Assembly (NCBI GenBank): GCA_026196275.1
Contig: JAPHTQ010000027.1
Coordinates: 1-38,085, forward strand
Source: Gammaproteobacteria bacterium
GTDB lineage: Bacteria > Pseudomonadota > Gammaproteobacteria > Thiohalomonadales > Thiohalomonadaceae
Reading direction: 5' to 3'
DNA: 38,085 nucleotides
Shown here: positions 10,823 to 21,448 of the stretch, piece after piece
Numbering within the stretch: position 1 is the stretch's first letter
Layout of the letters: each line of letters starts with the position of its first letter
Notes under the pieces: model-generated
Databases searched by the model: none
Told to the model about the DNA's origin: nothing
Seen by the model: only the letters and a program-made list of their open reading frames with translations
Translations under genes and position numbers: made by a program

Positions 10823-10903
10823 TCAAAGTGAAAGATTTCGGCATCAGGCCTGATGGTAAAAAGCACGCGTCAGCGCTGGCGCGGAACAATTGCAGGAGAG
10901 ATG

Positions 10904-13171
10904 ATGCACCCACATCAACCCCCCCCCGGGTACCTCAACACCATGCTTCGGCTGGTGATGTTAATGGCCACATTGTGGCTGGTTTCAGGCTTTGCAGCGG
11001 CCAATGCGGCAACCATCGATGAGCAGCATCCGCAGGTCAAGGCCTTCTTCCCCCAGGCAGACCGCTTTGGCACGATCGAAGGAGACCCTCCTGCCGCCCC
11101 CGTCTACAAGGGCGACGAGATCATCGGTTACGCCTTTGTGAGCGATGACATCGTCTCGATCCCGGCCTACTCCGGTAAACCCGTTAACATGCTAATGGGC
11201 ATCAGTACCGAGGGAAAGATCACCGGGGCCAAGGTGCTGGAGCACCATGAACCGATCCTGTTGGTGGGGATCCCTGAGCACAAGCTCTTTGACTTTGCTG
11301 ATACCTATGTTGGGCGCAAGGTCACCGAGCGGGTCAAGGTCGGTGCAGGAAAGCGCGAAGGCTTTTCCAATGTCGATGTGATTACCGGCGCGACCGTCAC
11401 CGTCATCGTCGTCAACCGCACCATCATGCGCGCGGCGCAGCGCGTGGCCGCATCGCGCGGGATTATCAAGCTTGGCAAGCGAACCCGCACCAGGGCACGC
11501 GCAGAGGTGCGGCTTGATCGCTTCAATCAGGCGGATTGGACCTTCCTCACCGGTGACGGCTCAATACGGCGCATGCTGATTACCCAGGATCAGATAGACG
11601 AGGCCTTCCGCGGTACCGAGGCAGAGACCCCTGAGGGTGCCGAGGAGGCCAACTCAATCTGTGCGCCGACGGCCGGCGGCGGAGAACGTTGTGACGTCTT
11701 CGTCGATCTCTACTATGCCTATCTTAACGCTCCGACTGTTGGCAGAAACCTACTGGGAGAGAAGGAGTACAACTGGTTGATGGCGGAGCTGAAGCCAGGT
11801 GAACATGCCATTGCCATCATGTCCAATGGTGTCTACTCGTTCAAGGGATCAGGTTATGTCCGCGGCGGGATCTTCGATCGCATACAGGTCGGTCAGGGTG
11901 ATGAGGTGATCAATTTCCGTGACCTCGACCACTACCGTCTCAGCGACGTCTATGCCGAGGGGATGCCTGACTTCCGGGAAATGGGGATCTTCGTTGTCCG
12001 CGAGAACTACGGTTTCGACCCGGGCTCGGAGTGGAGCATGTCCCTGCTGGTGCATCGCGCCACCGGCCCGCTCGACAGCGTATTTACCACCTTTAGCGGC
12101 AATTATGAGTTACCCGAAGCGTACCTGTCCCGGCCTGAGGCCCCGGCCGTGCCGGACATCTCCGAGAGCGATGACTGGCCGATGTGGGTGGCGGTATGGG
12201 AAGAACGCACCTTCCAGATCGTGGTGCTCGGTATCGGATTGAGCGTGCTGACGCTGATCCTGGTGCTTCAGGATTGGCTGGTTCGTTTTCCGCGTCTGAT
12301 CACCTATCTGCGAACCGGTTTCCTCTTCTACACCCTGTTTATTATCGGCTGGTATATGCTGGGCCAGTTGTCGGTGGTGAATGTACTGACCTTTGTCAAC
12401 GCGGTGATCAAGGACTTCAGTTGGGAGACCTTCCTTATTGATCCCGTTATGTTCATTCTGTGGAGTTTTGTCGCCGTAACCCTGCTGCTGTGGGGGCGTG
12501 GCGTCTACTGCGGCTGGTTGTGCCCCTATGGCGCGCTGCAGAAGCTGGTGAATATGGGCGCACGCAAGTTGAAAGTGCCGCAATGGAATGTCCCCACACT
12601 GGTACACGAGCGTCTGTGGGGGATCAAATATGTGATCCTGCTGGTGCTGTTTGGCATTGCACTCGGCTCCATGGGAACGGCGGAGCGCTATGCGGAGGTG
12701 GAGCCATTCAAGACAGCCATTACGCTGCGCTTTGACCGTGAGTGGCCGTTCATTTTGTATGCCGCGGGATTGGTTCTGATCTCGGCGTTTAACGCAAAAT
12801 TCTACTGTAAATACCTCTGTCCTCTGGGGGCAGCCCTGGCGGTGCCGGCGCGGCTGCGCCTGTTCAACTGGCTGCGCCGGCGCAAGGAGTGTGGCAAGCC
12901 TTGCCAGATCTGTTCGCACGAGTGCGACATTCAGGCGATTAACGACACCGGCGAGATCAATGCCAACGAGTGTCACTACTGCCTTGATTGTCAGGTTATC
13001 TACTGGGACGAAAAAACCTGTCCGCCTTTGATACAGCGGAGAAAGCGGCGGGAGAAAGCCGGTAGAGCCCGTGAGTCGGTTCGCTGGATGGAAAAAGAGT
13101 TGGGGGCTGAAGCCGGCCTTGAAGAGACAAAAAATAGACAACAACGAGATGAGAGCGGGGCTCGTGAATAA
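10904..13171 (+). CDS. nosR: NosR, FMN- and iron-sulfur membrane protein for N2O reduction
   Basis: NosR supplies electrons to NosZ and is needed for nosZ expression or maturation. The protein has a signal-like N-terminus (LWLVSGFAAANA), then a periplasmic FMN-binding domain with DVITGAT, whose Thr (T164) is the expected covalent flavin site. Membrane helices from about residue 430 follow, with two CxxxCP motifs (CGWLCPYGAL and CKYLCPLGAA). A C-terminal double 4Fe-4S region has CGKPCQICSHEC and CHYCLDC. A charged tail follows. The ATG at 10904 has AGGAG five bases upstream (10894-10898), and an adjacent ATG at 10901 is also possible. A run of nine C lies at codons 6-8. nosZ follows after 50 bases. 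Confidence 0.95.
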   Translation: MHPHQPPPGYLNTMLRLVMLMATLWLVSGFAAANAATIDEQHPQVKAFFPQADRFGTIEGDPPAAPVYKGDEIIGYAFVSDDIVSIPAYSGKPVNMLMGISTEGKITGAKVLEHHEPILLVGIPEHKLFDFADTYVGRKVTERVKVGAGKREGFSNVDVITGATVTVIVVNRTIMRAAQRVAASRGIIKLGKRTRTRARAEVRLDRFNQADWTFLTGDGSIRRMLITQDQIDEAFRGTEAETPEGAEEANSICAPTAGGGERCDVFVDLYYAYLNAPTVGRNLLGEKEYNWLMAELKPGEHAIAIMSNGVYSFKGSGYVRGGIFDRIQVGQGDEVINFRDLDHYRLSDVYAEGMPDFREMGIFVVRENYGFDPGSEWSMSLLVHRATGPLDSVFTTFSGNYELPEAYLSRPEAPAVPDISESDDWPMWVAVWEERTFQIVVLGIGLSVLTLILVLQDWLVRFPRLITYLRTGFLFYTLFIIGWYMLGQLSVVNVLTFVNAVIKDFSWETFLIDPVMFILWSFVAVTLLLWGRGVYCGWLCPYGALQKLVNMGARKLKVPQWNVPTLVHERLWGIKYVILLVLFGIALGSMGTAERYAEVEPFKTAITLRFDREWPFILYAAGLVLISAFNAKFYCKYLCPLGAALAVPARLRLFNWLRRRKECGKPCQICSHECDIQAINDTGEINANECHYCLDCQVIYWDEKTCPPLIQRRKRREKAGRARESVRWMEKELGAEAGLEETKNRQQRDESGARE

Positions 13172-13221: not shown

Positions 13222-15078
13222 ATGGCAAAGAAGAATGAAGTCGCGTCAATCTCGCGGAGGAACTTCCTGGCGGCAACGGGGGCTGCGACAGGCCTCGGTG
13301 TGGCAGCAGCAGTTGCTCCCTATCCGGTCTGGTCTGAAGCCCGTGAGGGCGGACTGAATATCCATGTCGGCCCCGGTGAACTGGATGAATACTACGGTTT
13401 CTGGAGTGGCGGTCAATCGGGTGAGGTGCGTGTTCTCGGCATCCCCTCGATGCGTGAACTGACACGGATCCCGGTATTCAACTACTGCGGTGCCACAGGC
13501 CATGGCCTGACCAACGAAACGAAGCGGATCCTGGGCCCCGATGCACCGCTCAACGGTGACACCCACCACCCGCATCCGAGCTTCACGGACGGCACTTTCG
13601 ACGGCAAGTATCTCTTTATCAACGACAAGGCTAATACACGTGTAGCGCGTATCCGCCTTGATGTGATGAAGACAGACAAAATTGTAAATGTCCCGAATGT
13701 GCAGGCCATCCACGGTATGCGTCCGCAGAAGGTGCCGTATACCAAATACATCTTCTGCAACGCAGAATTCCGCATGCCGCATCCCAATGACGGTAGCAAC
13801 ATGGATGACAACAGTCAGTACTACACCATGTTCAATGCCATCGATGCAGAAAGCATGGAAGTGGCCTTCCAGGTCATCGTCGACGGTAACCTCGATAACA
13901 CCGAGGCCGACTACTCCGGTAAGTATGCGATCTCCACCTGCTACAACTCCGAAGAGGGCTTTACGCTGGGCGAGACCATGCGCAATGAGCGTGACTGGAC
14001 GGTAATTTTCAATATTCCGCGCATCGAAGCGGCCGTCAAGGCCAAGAAGTTCACCACCCTGGGTGACTCCAAAGTGCCGGTGCTTGATGGACGCAAGGGC
14101 TCGAAGCTGACCATGTATGTGCCGGTGCCGAAAAGCCCGCACGGCATCAATTCCACTCCGGATGGCAAGTACGTCGTTGCCAACGGCAAACTGTCACCCA
14201 CCGTTACTGTGATCGAGTGGGCGAAGGTGGACCAGTGGTTTGCCGGTAAGCTGAAGAGTGAGCGGGATGTGGTCGTGGCTGAGCCAGAGCTGGGCCTTGG
14301 GCCGCTGCACACCGCCTATGATGGCCGTGGCAATGGTTATACGACTCTGTTCATCGACAGTCAGATCGCAAAATGGAATATCGCCGATGCGATCCGTTCC
14401 TACAATGGCGAAAAGGTTAACTACATTCGCCAGAAGTTGGATGTGCAATACCAGCCGGGTCATAACCACACCAGCATGGGTGAAACCAAGGAAGCCGATG
14501 GCAAATGGTTGATGGTGCTGTGCAAATTCTCCAAGGACCGGTTCCTGCCGTGCGGCCCGCTGCATGCAGAGAACGACCAGTTGATCGATATCTCAGGCGA
14601 TGAGATGAAGCTGGTGCATGACGGTCCTGCATTTGCCGAACCGCACGACTGTGAGATCGTTCGTCGCGATATCATCAAGACGAAGAAGATCTGGACACGG
14701 GATGACCCCTACTTCGCCGACACTGTTGCCATGGCCAAAAAAGATGGTGTTGTGCTTGAGAAGGACAACAAGATCATCCGTGATGGCAAAAAGGTGCGTG
14801 TCTATATGACCTCGGTGGCGCCGAACTTCGGCCTGAACGAGATCCGTGTCAAGAAGGGCGATGAGGTAACGGTTACCATCACCAACCTTGACCAGATCGA
14901 GGATGTTACCCACGGCTTCACCCTGGTCAATCACGGGATTGCCATGGAGATCAGTCCGCAGCAGACCTCGTCGGTCACCTTCACTGCAGACAAGCCCGGT
15001 GTGCACTGGTACTACTGCCAGTGGTTCTGCCATGCACTGCATATGGAGATGCGTGGTAGGTTGTTTGTTGAAGCCTAA
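13222..15078 (+). CDS. nosZ: Nitrous-oxide reductase, clade I (Tat-exported)
   Basis: This periplasmic multicopper enzyme of 618 residues reduces N2O to N2. A twin-arginine signal (SRRNFLAATG, residues about 11-20) marks clade I. The seven-bladed propeller carries the CuZ histidines in DTHHPHPS, RMPHPND, KSPHGIN, PLHTAYD, GHNHTSMGE and EPHDCE. The C-terminal cupredoxin domain holds the CuA ligands in CQWFCHALHMEM (C599, C603, H607, M610), with the further His in DVTHGFTLVNHG. All key residues look intact, so the enzyme should be functional. A GAGGA ribosome site precedes the ATG. A hairpin terminator follows within six bases of the stop. Confidence 0.97.
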   Translation: MAKKNEVASISRRNFLAATGAATGLGVAAAVAPYPVWSEAREGGLNIHVGPGELDEYYGFWSGGQSGEVRVLGIPSMRELTRIPVFNYCGATGHGLTNETKRILGPDAPLNGDTHHPHPSFTDGTFDGKYLFINDKANTRVARIRLDVMKTDKIVNVPNVQAIHGMRPQKVPYTKYIFCNAEFRMPHPNDGSNMDDNSQYYTMFNAIDAESMEVAFQVIVDGNLDNTEADYSGKYAISTCYNSEEGFTLGETMRNERDWTVIFNIPRIEAAVKAKKFTTLGDSKVPVLDGRKGSKLTMYVPVPKSPHGINSTPDGKYVVANGKLSPTVTVIEWAKVDQWFAGKLKSERDVVVAEPELGLGPLHTAYDGRGNGYTTLFIDSQIAKWNIADAIRSYNGEKVNYIRQKLDVQYQPGHNHTSMGETKEADGKWLMVLCKFSKDRFLPCGPLHAENDQLIDISGDEMKLVHDGPAFAEPHDCEIVRRDIIKTKKIWTRDDPYFADTVAMAKKDGVVLEKDNKIIRDGKKVRVYMTSVAPNFGLNEIRVKKGDEVTVTITNLDQIEDVTHGFTLVNHGIAMEISPQQTSSVTFTADKPGVHWYYCQWFCHALHMEMRGRLFVEA

Positions 15079-15136: not shown

Positions 15137-16438
15137 ATGATTAAAGACAAATTCTTTGTGGTGTGGCTGTTGTTGCTGACAGCGGCGCCAACACTTGCAG
15201 CGAGTGACTGGCCGGTAACTGCCGGCAGTACGCCGTTGCCAGAGGTTATCGCGCAGGCATCCCCGGGTGATCGCCTGCTGCTTTCGCCCGGTCGTTACCG
15301 GGTGAATCTGTTGCTGGACAAACCGCTGGTGATTGAGGGGCAGCCAGGTGCTGTGCTTGATGGCGGCGGTGAGGGTGACGTGATCCGCATTGTCGCGGAA
15401 GATGTCACACTCAAGGGGCTGGAGATCACCGGTTCAGGTCGTGATCTTACCGACATGAATGCGCTGATCTTTGTGGAACGAAGTGCGACTCGGACGCGTA
15501 TCGAGAACAACCGCCTGCAGGGCGATGTTTTCGGCGTCTGGGTGGATGGTGCCAGGGATGTGCACATCATTAATAACACTATTCAGGGTAATCCGGATAT
15601 CCGTTCACAAGACCGCGGTAACGGGGTGCATCTGTTTAGCGCTACCGGTGCGGTAGTGGATGGGAATGAGATAATGGGGACAAGGGATGGTATCTATATT
15701 GATACCAGTAACCACAACAGGCTTAGCAATAACTACATCCACCACCTGCGTTACGGTATCCACTATATGTACTCCTACCACAACGAGGTTGTGGGCAATA
15801 CAACGGATACTACCCGTACGGGCTACGCCCTGATGCAGTCAAAGTTTCTGACGGTTACCGGTAACCGCTCGAAAAACGACCAAAACTACGGCATTCTTCT
15901 CAATTTTATTGTTTCAAGCCATCTGCAAGGCAACACCGTCGAGGGTGTCCGCGCGGGCACAAGCCGTATCAATGGTGGATATGATGTCGGTGGTGCCGAG
16001 GGCAAGGCGATATTCATCTACAACTCGCAGTTCAACACGCTACAGGAAAACCAGTTCCTCAACAGTGATATCGGTATTCACATAACTGCCGGTTCGGAAG
16101 ATAACAAGATCTTCAACAATGCGTTTGTGCGTAACAAGACACAGGTGAAGTATGTGGCCACGCGTAAGCAGGAGTGGTCACATGAGGGCATGGGAAATTA
16201 CTGGAGTGACTACATCGGTTACGATATGAATAGCGATGGCCGGGGCGATACGGTGTATGAACCGAATGACGGTATCGACCGGGTGCTGTGGAAATATCCG
16301 ATAGCCAAACTGTTGTTGCACAGCCCTGCGGTAGAGACTCTGCACTGGGTGCAGCGGCAGTTTCCGGTGTTGCGTCCGCAAGGGGTCAAGGACAGTTATC
16401 CATTAATACGAATGCCTGACAGCGTTAGGGAGCTGTAA
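15137..16438 (+). CDS. nosD: NosD, periplasmic beta-helix protein for CuZ site assembly
   Basis: This 433-residue protein has a Sec-type signal (VVWLLLLTAAPTLA, cleavage near residue 21). A right-handed beta-helix made of PbH1/CASH repeats follows, visible as recurring N-x-I and G-N-x segments such as IENNRLQGDVFGVWVDGA and NTIQGNP. NosD works with the NosFY ABC transporter in building the copper-sulfide CuZ centre of NosZ. The conserved segment near the end (GNYWSDYIGYDMNSDG) is characteristic of the family. The stop overlaps the nosF ATG (TAATG). Only a weak ribosome site precedes its start. Confidence 0.94.
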   Translation: MIKDKFFVVWLLLLTAAPTLAASDWPVTAGSTPLPEVIAQASPGDRLLLSPGRYRVNLLLDKPLVIEGQPGAVLDGGGEGDVIRIVAEDVTLKGLEITGSGRDLTDMNALIFVERSATRTRIENNRLQGDVFGVWVDGARDVHIINNTIQGNPDIRSQDRGNGVHLFSATGAVVDGNEIMGTRDGIYIDTSNHNRLSNNYIHHLRYGIHYMYSYHNEVVGNTTDTTRTGYALMQSKFLTVTGNRSKNDQNYGILLNFIVSSHLQGNTVEGVRAGTSRINGGYDVGGAEGKAIFIYNSQFNTLQENQFLNSDIGIHITAGSEDNKIFNNAFVRNKTQVKYVATRKQEWSHEGMGNYWSDYIGYDMNSDGRGDTVYEPNDGIDRVLWKYPIAKLLLHSPAVETLHWVQRQFPVLRPQGVKDSYPLIRMPDSVREL

Positions 16439-17367
16439 TGTCTAATGTGATTGAATTGGAGGGGGTTAGCAAGCAGTATAAGGGGGTCGCCGCGCTACGG
16501 GATCTCAACCTGCATGTGCCCCGTGGCGAGGTCCTTGGTCTGTTGGGTCATAACGGGGCCGGCAAGACCACGACCATCAAGATTATTCTCGGAATTATCG
16601 AGCAGAGTGCCGGCCGTGTGGATGTGCTCGGCCACTCGCCATCCGGCCGAGACTCGCGGGCCCTGCGTATGCAGTGGGGCTATCTTCCGGAGAGCGTCAG
16701 TTTTTATGAGCAGCTCAGCGGCCGTGAAGTGCTGGACTACTTTGCGCGCCTGAAACGTGTCAATGCGCAGCAGCGTGATGCATTGCTTGAGCGCGTGGGG
16801 TTGGCCGCGGCAGCGGATCGCAAGGTCAAGACCTACTCCAAGGGGATGCGTCAGCGGCTCGGGCTGGCACAGGCACTGCTGGGTCAGCCCAAACTGTTGC
16901 TGCTTGATGAGCCTACTGTTGGCCTGGACCCGGTGGCGGTGCGTGATTTCTTCGCTACTCTGGATGAGCTGCGCAGTAAGGGCACAACTATCATTCTCTC
17001 CTCGCATGTGTTGCCCGGGATTGAACAGCATATCGATCGGGTGGCCATTCTGCGCGAAGGGAAATTGAGTGCTGTCGGAACATTGGATGAACTGCGCCGC
17101 GAGACGGGCATGCCTCTGCAGATACGTGCCCGGGGCGACTGGGCTGCCGGAGCATGGGAGAGTCGGTTTTCCGAGAACGGTATCCAGGGCTATCAGGTTA
17201 ATGGGCATCAGATCAGGGTGGAGAGCCCCGCAGATCAGAAGTTGGCAGTAATGCGATTGCTGCTGGATGACAGCAATACACATGATCTTGATATACAGCA
17301 GGCCTCGCTGGAGACGCTCTATCTCCACTACATGGGCACAGCAGGAAGAATACAGAACGATGCATGA
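16438..17367 (+). CDS. nosF: NosF, ABC transporter ATPase
   Basis: This cytoplasmic ATPase of 309 residues powers the NosDFY complex. It has Walker A GHNGAGKTT (37-45), the ABC signature YSKGMRQRLGLAQ, Walker B LLLLDEPTVGLD and a switch His in SSHVLPG. The last ~90 residues form a C-terminal accessory domain common to NosF and CcmA-like ATPases. The start overlaps the nosD stop and the 3' end overlaps nosY by eight bases, so all three are co-translated. Confidence 0.95.
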   Translation: MSNVIELEGVSKQYKGVAALRDLNLHVPRGEVLGLLGHNGAGKTTTIKIILGIIEQSAGRVDVLGHSPSGRDSRALRMQWGYLPESVSFYEQLSGREVLDYFARLKRVNAQQRDALLERVGLAAAADRKVKTYSKGMRQRLGLAQALLGQPKLLLLDEPTVGLDPVAVRDFFATLDELRSKGTTIILSSHVLPGIEQHIDRVAILREGKLSAVGTLDELRRETGMPLQIRARGDWAAGAWESRFSENGIQGYQVNGHQIRVESPADQKLAVMRLLLDDSNTHDLDIQQASLETLYLHYMGTAGRIQNDA

Positions 17368-18190
17368 GATCCTCACTGTCGCAAGAAAAGAGTTTCGGGA
17401 TGGCCTTCGAAATCGTTGGGTGCTGGCAATTACGGTGCTGTTTGCCCTGTTTGCACTGGGTCTGGCCTATTTTGGCGCCGCAGTCTCCGGGCAGGTGGGA
17501 TTCACCTCACTCGATACCACCATTGTCAGCCTTGCCAGTCTGGCGATCTTTGTGATCCCGTTGATCGCCCTGTTGCTGGCCTACGACAGCCTTGTCGGTG
17601 AGGCCGAAATGGGCACCCTGATGTTGCTGCTAAGTTACCCGCTGAGCCGGTTCCAGCTGCTGACAGGGAAGTTTATGGGTCACGCCATGGTGATGGCCTT
17701 CTCCTCGGTGCTCGGTTTCGGCCTGGCTGCGTTGACCATCGGGGTGTTAACCGGGGAGGCTGATTCGCTGGCGCTGTGGAAGGCCTTTGGACTGTTTATT
17801 CTGTCTGCGGTGTTGCTCGGCTGGGTGTTTGTTTCACTGGCCTACCTGGTAAGTGCCCTGAGTAGCGAAAAGTCGAGGGCCGCCGGACTGGCGTTGATTG
17901 TCTGGTTCATGTTTGTGCTGGTGTTCGATTTGGCGCTGTTGGGAGTTCTGGTAGCGACAGAGGGGGGGGTTAACGAGACCTTCTTCCCCTATCTCTTGAT
18001 GCTCAATCCTGCAGACGTCTTCAGGATGATTAACCTGGCGGGCTTCGAAGCGGCCGAGGTCTACACCGGCATGGCGGCCTTTACATCAGGGCAGTTGTCC
18101 AATATACCCCTATTGATAGTAGTATTGTTGCTGTGGAGCGTAGCTCCGCTGGCACTTGCATCATGGGTGTTTAACCGTCGCCTGAGCTAG
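17360..18190 (+). CDS. nosY: NosY, ABC-2 type membrane permease
   Basis: This 276-residue integral membrane protein has the same length as characterised NosY. It begins MHEILTVARKEFRDG, the typical amphipathic N-terminus, and has about six hydrophobic segments. The conserved segment EAEMGTLMLLLSYPLSR is typical of ABC-2 permeases. It pairs with NosF and contacts NosD to drive CuZ assembly. The ATG at 17360 is chosen because an in-frame upstream ATG at 17267 lies within nosF and adds unrelated sequence. A run of eight G occurs at 17962-17969 within the gene. Confidence 0.93.
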   Translation: MHEILTVARKEFRDGLRNRWVLAITVLFALFALGLAYFGAAVSGQVGFTSLDTTIVSLASLAIFVIPLIALLLAYDSLVGEAEMGTLMLLLSYPLSRFQLLTGKFMGHAMVMAFSSVLGFGLAALTIGVLTGEADSLALWKAFGLFILSAVLLGWVFVSLAYLVSALSSEKSRAAGLALIVWFMFVLVFDLALLGVLVATEGGVNETFFPYLLMLNPADVFRMINLAGFEAAEVYTGMAAFTSGQLSNIPLLIVVLLLWSVAPLALASWVFNRRLS

Positions 18191-18230: not shown

Positions 18231-18908
18231 ATGTTAGAAGTGAAAGCTGTATCAATGTTCAGTGCGGGGAGAGTCGGTCGTGTGTTGGGGCTCTCCATGG
18301 CCCTGTTGCTGCTGGCCACCACCGGCGCGGGTTGTAGCGAACAGTCCACTACGACGGAAAATCTGCCTCCGGTGGCAATCGATCAGGGTGACGAGTGTCA
18401 TGTCTGCGGTATGATCATCAAGCGTTTCCCCGGGCCCAAGGGCGAGGTCTTCAGCCGCCACCACGAAGAGGCGCTCAAGTTCTGCTCCACTACCGACATG
18501 TTCAGCTATCTGCTTCAGCCTGAAGCGAAGGCGGCGGTGCAGCAGGTTTATGTGCATGATATGGGGGCAACCGACTGGCAGCAGCCCGATGACAGCGCAC
18601 TTATCGACGCACAAAGTGCCTGGTATGTTGTCGGCCATTCGCTCCAGGGCGCCATGGGTGAAACACTGGCATCGTTTAAGACCGAGGCAAGCGCACAAAA
18701 ATTTGCCGAAGAGCACGGCGGCAGGGTTATTGCCTATACTGATGTTACGCTGGAATTGCTGGCAAACCTGAATAGTGGGGGCATGAAGATGGATTCTCAC
18801 AACGGTGACGGAATGAAAATGGACTCCGCCAGCGATGATGGGATGGAGATGGACTCCGACAGCGATGAGGGGATGAAGATGGACTCCCCCAGCGATCACA
18901 GCATGTAA
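18231..18908 (+). CDS. nosL: NosL, copper-binding outer-membrane lipoprotein with Met-rich tail
   Basis: NosL delivers Cu(I) to the NosZ maturation machinery. The 225-residue protein has a lipoprotein signal with Cys35 in TTGAGC. It has the family's copper-binding CHVCGMII motif (C56, C59, M61), and the usual KFCSTTDMFSYLL and GAMGETLASF parts. The C-terminus carries four perfectly phased 10-residue units based on GMKMDSxSDD, then SM. I know of no such tail as a family feature, and it adds about 45 residues beyond the typical core. GGAG lies ten bases before the ATG. It is 40 bases after nosY and likely co-transcribed. Confidence 0.92.
   Translation: MLEVKAVSMFSAGRVGRVLGLSMALLLLATTGAGCSEQSTTTENLPPVAIDQGDECHVCGMIIKRFPGPKGEVFSRHHEEALKFCSTTDMFSYLLQPEAKAAVQQVYVHDMGATDWQQPDDSALIDAQSAWYVVGHSLQGAMGETLASFKTEASAQKFAEEHGGRVIAYTDVTLELLANLNSGGMKMDSHNGDGMKMDSASDDGMEMDSDSDEGMKMDSPSDHSM
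18780..18899 (+). repeat. Four tandem 30-base repeats within nosL
   Basis: Units run 18780-18809, 18810-18839, 18840-18869 and 18870-18899. Each encodes a variant of G-M-(K/E)-M-D-S followed by four polar residues. The second to fourth units share ATGGACTCC and CAGCGAT, while the first is the most divergent. There are no unique spacers, so this is an expanded coding tandem repeat and not a CRISPR array. Confidence 0.95.
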
Positions 18909-18974: not shown

Positions 18975-19343
18975 ATGGCTGAAAAGTTACTGATAATCAT
19001 GATGAATACAGATCCAGCCCACCCCGTTGCGGTGGCTACCCCCCTGTTCCAGGCCACCATCGCCGCCTCGATGGAGTTCGAGGTGGAGGTGGTGTTCACT
19101 GGGCGTTGTGGTGAGCTGGCGGCTAGTGGTCTGGCGAAGCGCTATAGCCTGCATGAGGGAGGCTCGCAAAGCGTCTATGACCTTATCCGTGAGGCGCATG
19201 AGGCCGGGGTAACGTTCAAGGTGTGTTCCAGCGCACTGGAACAGGAACAAGCCGATACTATCCCCGAGATTGCTGAGACGGTAGGCAGTGCCTATATTAT
19301 CGCCCAGGTGATGTCGGATGATGTAGTCAGCCTCACCTACTAG
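18975..19343 (+). CDS. DsrE family protein
   Basis: This 122-residue cytoplasmic protein has the DsrE/DsrF-like fold. It has an N-terminal strand (KLLIIMMNTDPAHP), the FEVEVVFTGRCGELA segment, and FKVCSSALE with Cys84 at the position often used to carry persulfide in this family. DsrE-like proteins act in sulfur relay (DsrEFH, TusBCD), but small single-domain members remain mostly uncharacterised. A GAGGGAG ribosome site lies about ten bases upstream. It follows nosL by 66 bases with no terminator seen and could be co-transcribed. No other sulfur gene is in the window. Nothing was recognised in the 110 bases after it. Confidence 0.78.
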   Translation: MAEKLLIIMMNTDPAHPVAVATPLFQATIAASMEFEVEVVFTGRCGELAASGLAKRYSLHEGGSQSVYDLIREAHEAGVTFKVCSSALEQEQADTIPEIAETVGSAYIIAQVMSDDVVSLTY

Positions 19344-19454: not shown

Positions 19455-19901
19455 TTAGCCAAACAGCTTCTTCACTACGCCACTGATCCATGACTGGCCG
19501 CCCTCCTTCTCAATAGTCTGACCGACCGCGTCGGCGTATTTCTGATCCTCCTGACGGATATGGATGTTGACCCAATCGCGCAGCATGCTGGTCAGCGCTT
19601 GGTGCACATCCTCACCAGCGCTATGGCGGCCGCGAAGATCGGCCAGCTTCTTGGCGAACATCTCGTGGATCGCCTCGTGCGAGGCGCGGTATTTGTAGTT
19701 AGCCTCCGCCATCAGGTGCTCTTCAAACAGGAAGTGGTTGACAGCGTAGTCGAGCAGATTATCGAGGGTGGTGCCGAGGACGGCGCTGTCGCCCGACTCA
19801 TGGGCATCGGAGAGGGCGTTGAGGTAGTGAACGATTTTTTGATTTTCGGCGTCAATTTCTGCGATGCCGGTATTCAGGTCGTCGCTCCAGATCATATGCA
19901 T
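19455..19901 (-). CDS. Bacteriohemerythrin with one iron-ligand His replaced by Asn
   Basis: This is a four-helix O2-binding or sensing protein of about 148 residues. Family ligands H56, E60, H75, H79, H114 and D119 are present in HFLFEE, ASHEAIHEMF and HIRQED. The first expected His, in the usual IDEQHKK motif, is Asn20 (IDAENQK), read directly from an AAT codon. I start at the ATG at 19901, in place of the upstream 19934 one, because MHMIWSDDLNTGI matches the family start. The next ATG (19895) is also possible. A diiron site lacking one His may be altered, so O2 binding is not assured. It lies downstream of the metallo-hydrolase on the same strand. Confidence 0.85.
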   Translation of the reverse strand: MHMIWSDDLNTGIAEIDAENQKIVHYLNALSDAHESGDSAVLGTTLDNLLDYAVNHFLFEEHLMAEANYKYRASHEAIHEMFAKKLADLRGRHSAGEDVHQALTSMLRDWVNIHIRQEDQKYADAVGQTIEKEGGQSWISGVVKKLFG

Positions 19902-19959
19902 AGTATGGCTTTCCCCTTGTTGTTCTGCACACACCGTGGCGTCGTTGCCAGTCGTATGC

Positions 19960-20179: not shown

Positions 20180-21250
20180 TCAGAACAGTTCGAGCTCCAT
20201 CTCGCGATAGACAAAGTTGGCGTTGGCGCGGTGGTTCAGCTGGTACAGCCGGGTGTCGTGCCAGTCGGGGTAATCCGAGCTCTCCACCGCCTGCTGCAGA
20301 GTGATCCCCGCTTCCACCGCCTCGCCCATCTCCTCGCGCAGCCGCTCCACGTAGCTGCGGGTTTTGCTGACCATGGTGAACGGCGCCCGTTGCGCACTGC
20401 CGTGGCCGGGGACCATCAGTTTCGCCTCGGCGAAATTGTCCAGTAACCACTGCTGGCCTTCGATGGCCTGACGGCTGCTGCCGTCCCCCATGAAGGTGGT
20501 GCGCTGGTTGAAGGCGAGATCGGAGATCCAGAGGATCTGCTGCGGCAGCTGCTGCATCACCAGGTCACCGTGTGAATGGTGCTTACCGCTGTTATAGACG
20601 ACGAATCGCTTATCTCCCAGAGTGAAGCATTTTTTGCTGAAGTGTTCGTCGTCGATCAGTACGTCCGGGGTAACGGCGGCGAAGTTCTGCATATCCTGTT
20701 CGATAAAGCCGCGGCGGTACTCCACCGAGCTGTCGATCTGCTGTGAGTGGATATAGTCGAGCGTCCCCTTGTGCGCGATCACCGTGGCATCGGTGTTGCG
20801 GCGAAAGGCGATGGCGCCGTAGGAGTGGTCGGGGTGGTTATGGGTCAGCAGCAGGTAGCGCACCGGCTGGTCGGTGACGCTGCGGATGGTGGCGAGAAAA
20901 CGGCGGCCCAGCTTCGGTGTACCCAGGGAATCGATGACGAAGACACCGTCTTCGGTGACGACGAAACCGGCGTTGCCGTTCCAGCCACGGTTCTTCTCAT
21001 CCACTTCGGCGATATTGCCGAACAGCATGTAAGTGTCGGCGGCGATGCGGTAGTAGGGCAGTGGTTCATCGTCGGGGGCGTCGGCGTCGATAACCATAGC
21101 GGGTATCGCGTCGGTGTTGATCGCCGTGGCGGGCAGGTCGTATTCGCCTGAAGGCTTATCCGGTACCCGGGCACCGCCGGCCAGAGAGGCGGTGCTGAAC
21201 AGGTAGAGAAGGATGCTGCCGATTGCTGTGCGGATTGCGGTACGTCCCAT
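20180..21250 (-). CDS. Periplasmic metallo-beta-lactamase-fold hydrolase (SoxH/quinoprotein-relay-like)
   Basis: This 356-residue protein has a Sec-type signal (IGSILLYLFSTASLAGGA). Its metallo-beta-lactamase domain retains the zinc ligands: HNHPDH (HxHxDH), HSHGD, the Asp of ISDLAFNQ and the His of VPGHG. Such proteins hydrolyse diverse esters or thioesters. The closest likeness I recall is to the SoxH and quinoprotein-relay zinc metallohydrolase groups, but no sox or PQQ gene lies here. The ATG at 21250 follows GGAGGTGG. A longer frame to 21448 reads through the repeat at 21316-21393 and is rejected. Confidence 0.78.
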   Translation of the reverse strand: MGRTAIRTAIGSILLYLFSTASLAGGARVPDKPSGEYDLPATAINTDAIPAMVIDADAPDDEPLPYYRIAADTYMLFGNIAEVDEKNRGWNGNAGFVVTEDGVFVIDSLGTPKLGRRFLATIRSVTDQPVRYLLLTHNHPDHSYGAIAFRRNTDATVIAHKGTLDYIHSQQIDSSVEYRRGFIEQDMQNFAAVTPDVLIDDEHFSKKCFTLGDKRFVVYNSGKHHSHGDLVMQQLPQQILWISDLAFNQRTTFMGDGSSRQAIEGQQWLLDNFAEAKLMVPGHGSAQRAPFTMVSKTRSYVERLREEMGEAVEAGITLQQAVESSDYPDWHDTRLYQLNHRANANFVYREMELELF

Positions 21251-21315
21251 GGGACCACCTCCGTCCGTTGTCAGAGTGAAATGATGAATTATTAGCAGTA
21301 TAGACCCTGACATTG

Positions 21316-21393
21316 TTTGCCACAGAGCCCACAGAGCCCACAGAGGGCACAGAGGCATCAGGCTCAGTGTTCTATCTGTCCTCTGTGGCAAAA
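21316..21393. repeat. GCCACAGAG-family inverted repeat, copy 1
   Basis: The left arm TTTGCCACAGAG (21316-21327) is followed by three more CACAGAG-like units. The right arm CTCTGTGGCAAA is at 21381-21392. It lies between the metallo-hydrolase start and the prx terminator. Related copies occur at 23292, 27301 and 31420. No coding capacity. Confidence 0.8.
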
Positions 21394-21448
21394 TTATGTG
21401 TGTCATTCCCTGCGCCTTGGCGAGAGTTTCATTACGTTGTGCAGACAT

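Follow-up and report, generated by a model that had tools for sequence, protein, structure and literature searches.

A four-unit Met/Asp decapeptide array at the C-terminus of a gammaproteobacterial NosL

Biological removal of the greenhouse gas N2O depends mainly on N2O reductase, an enzyme whose maturation is limited by copper supply. The NosL of P. denitrificans has attomolar affinity for a single Cu(I) and does not bind Cu(II), and the CuZ centre needs it mainly at copper shortage (PMC6530538). The same study defined the CXM copper motif of NosL and regarded the CXXCXM form as that of clade II, naming P. stutzeri as an exception. The known systems that most resemble the one described here are S. 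stutzeri NosL (7osf/7znq) and the Marinobacter NosL, which share with it the core fold, the CxxCGM motif, the operon and a Met/His-rich tail. Unlike the tail studied here, theirs are mixtures of Met and His, with repeats of 9-12 bp at most and no 30-bp array.

Tails of similar composition occur on other copper proteins. PCuAC/AccA, likewise a Cu(I) chaperone of the periplasm, combines a high-affinity site in its core with a disordered, His/Met-rich C-terminal tail, but its cupredoxin-like fold is unrelated to that of NosL (PMC13006917). The AccA tail binds Cu(II) at the picomolar level, yet it is dispensable in N. gonorrhoeae (PMC13006917). The Met-rich domain of CueO and the 'molecular sponge' SilE, both proteins of other pathways, are flexible or disordered stretches proposed to retain Cu(I) or Ag(I) for short times at numerous weak sites (PMC11840665, PMC5008109). 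Met-rich stretches in general are proposed to act as a sponge, in which the binding of Cu(I) is statistical and dynamic (PMC11840665).

The window analyzed here is a stretch of 38,085 nucleotides from a gammaproteobacterium of the Thiohalomonadaceae (GCA_026196275.1, contig JAPHTQ010000027.1).

The nos operon and its NosL

The window contained a complete nosRZDFYL operon on the + strand, with nosL as the last gene. The nosR (10853-13171; NF046105, 1085.7 bits), nosZ (13222-15078; TIGR04244, 1042 bits) and nosD (15137-16438; TIGR04247, 487.6 bits) genes all scored over the NCBIfam cut-offs. The ABC ATPase gene nosF (16438-17367) and the ABC-2 permease gene nosY (17360-18190; PF12679, E 1.9e-41) were assigned from their position and from general ABC profiles, the ABC-ATPase matches of NosF being below every specific-family cut-off. 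The longest ORF of nosY starts at 17267, and a start at about 17360 is likelier.

Directly 3' of nosL, on the same strand, was a gene for a small DsrE/DsrF-like protein (18975-19343; PF02635, E 8.7e-7). A bacteriohemerythrin gene (19455-19934, - strand; NF002007, over cut-off) was convergent with the operon. A 9-bp tandem repeat, CCACAGAGC, was present in 3.9 copies at 21320-21354, within a frame on the - strand (20180-21448).

The nosL gene (18231-18908) encodes a NosL copper-chaperone lipoprotein of 225 aa, the only NosL detected by a Pfam profile search of the whole genome. Profile PF05573 matched residues 47-176 over positions 1-130 of 131 (E 2.3e-52), placing the core domain at 18369-18758. 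The best solved-structure matches by sequence were the NosL chains of 7osf and 7znq, from the S. stutzeri NosDFYL complex (E ~3e-46). The predicted model had the NosL fold; the closest structures in Foldseek were S. denitrificans NosL (7og7; E 4.4e-17, rmsd 1.4, TM-score of 0.93 when scaled to the target length) and the NosDFYL chains.

A signal peptide and lipobox (GAG-C35) were predicted at 18231-18335 from a model helix at residues 14-33 and from the lipoprotein Cys, C35, which was invariant in 41 aligned NosL sequences; the Gly at -3 is atypical for a lipobox. Residues C56, C59, G60 and M61 of the copper motif CHVCGM (residues 56-61; 18396-18413), a CXXCXM form of the CXM motif, were invariant in the same 41 sequences. 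By family match, motif and predicted fold, the gene is a true, ordinary NosL, in agreement with the original prediction of a normal core with CxxCGM. High-affinity Cu(I) binding and a role in CuZ assembly, known for P. denitrificans NosL (PMC6530538), are by analogy putative for this protein.

The neighboring NosZ is Tat-dependent and thereby of the clade I type, whereas the motif in NosL has the CXXCXM form assigned to clade II. This looks like a general pattern of the gammaproteobacterial group, as judged from the invariance of CXXCXM in the 41 aligned relatives.

The repeat array

The C-terminal 42 residues (184-225) made up a Met-rich, His-poor tail with 9 Met, 10 Asp, 2 His, 2 Glu and 3 Lys. 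Four 30-base units encoding GMxMDS decapeptides had been predicted in it, exactly in phase, and they were found at 18780-18899 (TRF period 30, 3.9 copies, 79% matches, score 138). The units read GMKMDSHNGD (18780-18809), GMKMDSASDD (18810-18839), GMEMDSDSDE (18840-18869) and GMKMDSPSDH (18870-18899), followed by a terminal SM and the stop codon (18900-18908). An antisense ORF (18252-18899) was rejected as a gene and judged to be a mechanical by-product of the repeat. In the AlphaFold model the tail had no secondary structure and a pLDDT of 52-60, against 92-98 over most of the core, and it is thus predicted to be disordered.

The units were identical to one another at 21-25 of 30 bases (70-83%; mean 23.5/30). 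Units 2-4 were 25/30 alike, and unit 1 was the most diverged. Shuffling the codons of the tail gave a pairwise identity of 9.5 +/- 1.1, with a maximum of 14.7 in 20,000 trials. Redrawing synonymous codons for the same peptide gave 19.9 +/- 0.84, still below the observed 23.5 (P 2e-4). This indicated that the DNA itself had been duplicated in tandem, and not the peptide alone. On the other hand, each pair of units differed at 5-9 bases, several of the differences being synonymous, which argued that the expansion was not very recent. Of the earlier suggestion of a recent expansion, the tandem duplication stood, and the young age was not well supported.

Five residue positions varied among the units, all at the K/E position or in the last four residues. 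The motif GM.MDS was constant in all four units, although its codons varied (columns 3, 15 and 18). The original prediction had named this motif beforehand. In a post hoc simulation of random changes to the consensus, on a star tree of four short units, such invariance had a P of 2.3e-4, and that of the two Met alone a P of 0.028. This moderate evidence suggests that GMxMDS was retained by selection at the protein level.

No second copy of the repeat was found elsewhere in the searched genome of the organism. The search of relatives that had been proposed, run with GMxMD-x5-GMxMD on 369 genomes of the class, returned the genome of the window and no other. Three matches came from viral contigs. 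Two of them, repeat proteins rich in Gly, Met and Pro, showed no evident likeness to NosL and were rejected as kin; the third looked like a low-complexity translation. The viral-contig proteins L220 and L221 carried Gly/Met/Pro-rich, GMPMDPxAMGG-like repeats and were by eye unrelated to NosL.

Met/His-rich tails in the NosL family

The C-termini of 187 distinct NosL cores were compared. Tails of at least 10 residues contained 10.9% Met and 9.4% His, against 3.6% and 3.8% in the cores. The last 25 residues held at least 25% Met plus His in 44 of the 187 NosL ends, compared with 0 of 374 ends of other ORFs at the same loci. The spacing M-x2-M was enriched in the tails (96 observed, 44.5 expected); M-x-M was not generally enriched (48 observed, 46 expected).

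Among the 78 nearest distinct NosL, a sample biased toward Marinobacter, 53 had a whole tail rich in Met or in Met and His, mostly those of Marinobacter and Stutzerimonas. Even sampling gave 4 of 39 in the class and 6 of 59 in the phylum, or about 10%. From these sequences, such tails appear to be common near the NosL of the window and a minority trait overall. By the yardstick of the original prediction, commonness in NosL, Met/His-rich tails as a kind are not special to this protein; the decapeptide array is. A search of the open-access literature, with the supplementary alignment of PMC6530538 and the subscription NosDFYL papers outside its scope, found no description of NosL tails of this type.

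Met-containing tandem repeats of 9-15 bp were also present in other NosL tails, with MDG or MGE units in Marinobacter and MPD and KPRMD units in alphaproteobacteria. The TRF score of 138 in the window was followed by 55 as the next highest. An apparent parallel was an alphaproteobacterial NosL (L178), whose long tail was rich in Met and Asp, lacked His and contained a repeat of 15 bp, RMDKPRMDMGADNMAGAPMKM. It belonged to another lineage and had another unit, in two copies.

On the best tree of the cores, the tail changed state 17 times at the 25% Met/His cut and 20 times at a 20% cut; at least seven of the changes at 25% fell on well-supported branches. The tail of the window was just under the 25% cut, because residues of the core junction were counted along with it, and was included at 20%. 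The tree was poorly resolved and placed the window NosL, without firm support, near Thiohalomonas- and Thiogranum-like sequences. The nearest NosL by core, e.g., that of Thiohalomonas, and many others had no Met-rich tail. Met- or His-rich tails thus appear to have evolved repeatedly in NosL, with differing sequences.

A GMxM at the core junction was found in 23 of the 78 nearest tails, nearly all from Marinobacter and mostly as N-x-G-M-x-M, which the window sequence NSGGMKM nearly matches. This start required four changes on the tree, and a single origin with Marinobacter gave an AU p of 0.22. As the sequences stand, convergence and common descent would account for it equally well.

These comparisons bear on the possibility that the tail does nothing specific. 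Replication slippage may have lengthened an unconstrained C-terminus with a unit that happens to encode Met and Asp, giving a nearly neutral, disordered extension. The length and sequence of the tails varied wildly between relatives, and many relatives lacked one; short tandem repeats recurred in them; and AccA can do without its tail in vivo (PMC13006917), all as such slippage would have it. It does not readily explain why strong Met/His enrichment was peculiar to NosL ends, why GMxMDS was kept when residues in the remaining half of every unit changed, or why the tails converged repeatedly on a Met- or His-rich composition. We consider neutral slippage an unlikely explanation, but the strongest of the alternatives.

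Possible function of the tail

Like the AccA tail, the tail of the window NosL was predicted to be disordered; it was rich in Met and poor in His (9 Met and 2 His of 42 residues). By this composition and analogy, it is a putative copper-binding tail. Model sites of three or two Met bind Cu(I) with a log beta of about 7.4-8, and Asp and Ser contribute little (PMC11840665). With such weak Met sites and little help from Asp, the tail would be unable to compete at equilibrium with the attomolar site of NosL. With two His, it should also be a poor Cu(II) ligand. The original prediction of a copper-binding tail that holds Cu(I) or Cu(II) was therefore partly supported: a Met-rich tail with GMxMDS retained was indeed present on a copper chaperone, but the tail is unlikely to store Cu(I) and Cu(II) and would at most be a transient sponge for Cu(I).

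The explanation we prefer starts from NosL as a lipoprotein that chaperones Cu(I) and, together with NosDFY, builds the CuZ centre of N2O reductase. Tandem duplication of one 30-bp unit, with the frame kept, produced an acidic tail that is rich in Met and predicted to be disordered. Its GMxM pairs, with eight Met in all, would offer numerous weak sites at which Cu(I) exchanges quickly, and its solubility and extended shape would be due to Gly, Ser and Asp. Such an antenna or sponge might raise the local Cu(I) near the CxxCGM site, or near NosD or NosZ, under copper limitation. From composition and analogy, a weak, fast Cu(I) antenna beside the tight site is the best-supported function. For the explanation as a whole, a normal NosL with a duplicated, disordered tail that serves as a weak Cu(I) sponge, we put the chances at about even.

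The enrichment of Met and His at NosL ends, the invariance of GM.MDS, the repeated gains of tails and the 9-15 bp repeats in other NosL were counted in favor of the sponge. Counted against it were the dispensable AccA tail, the many NosL without a Met-rich tail, the restriction of the array to one genome, and the GMxMD repeats of viral-contig proteins without evident copper role. Elsewhere, the genome encoded a PCuAC chaperone (L219, 146-697, - strand) whose tail is short and rich in His, ELMDGDHSHKGHGY, and the idea that the NosL tail is there because the other chaperone is missing was rejected on this account.

The tail might instead be an arm that contacts NosD, NosZ or the membrane, with Met making flexible hydrophobic contacts and Asp providing charge. 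NosL does act within the NosDFYL complex (7osf, 7znq), and the length and strong acidity of the tail would suit such a role. However, the tailed S. stutzeri NosL comprises 145 residues in the 7znq chain against 198 in the construct, which is consistent with an unordered signal peptide and tail, and tail sequences were not conserved between relatives except in Met/His content. Such an arm is in our judgment improbable. Still less credible, to the point of being very improbable, is an oxidant scavenger whose surface Met are sacrificially oxidized and then repaired by a periplasmic Msr, shielding the Cys/Met copper site: surface Met are oxidation-prone, and in another copper chaperone, CusF, Met has been documented to be oxidized and repaired in the periplasm (PMC9302797), but N2O respiration is mostly anaerobic, and the enrichment of His alongside Met in the relatives' tails fits metal binding better.

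Extended to the family, the sponge reading would be that NosL repeatedly gained disordered, Met/His-rich tails, often by repeat expansion, which feed the chaperone site with Cu(I) under copper limitation, the window NosL being the most regular and a nearly His-free example. We propose this tentatively, at somewhat less than even chances.

Judged from sequence comparison, this type of tail is already widespread in NosL, and the four-unit 30-bp array is the most regular case known here. Should NosL tails tune copper capture, this could be why denitrifiers differ in the N2O that they emit at low copper, and the array of four units would be a clean natural construct for testing such tuning. If they do not, the array would be a tidy case of repeat growth at a disordered protein end.
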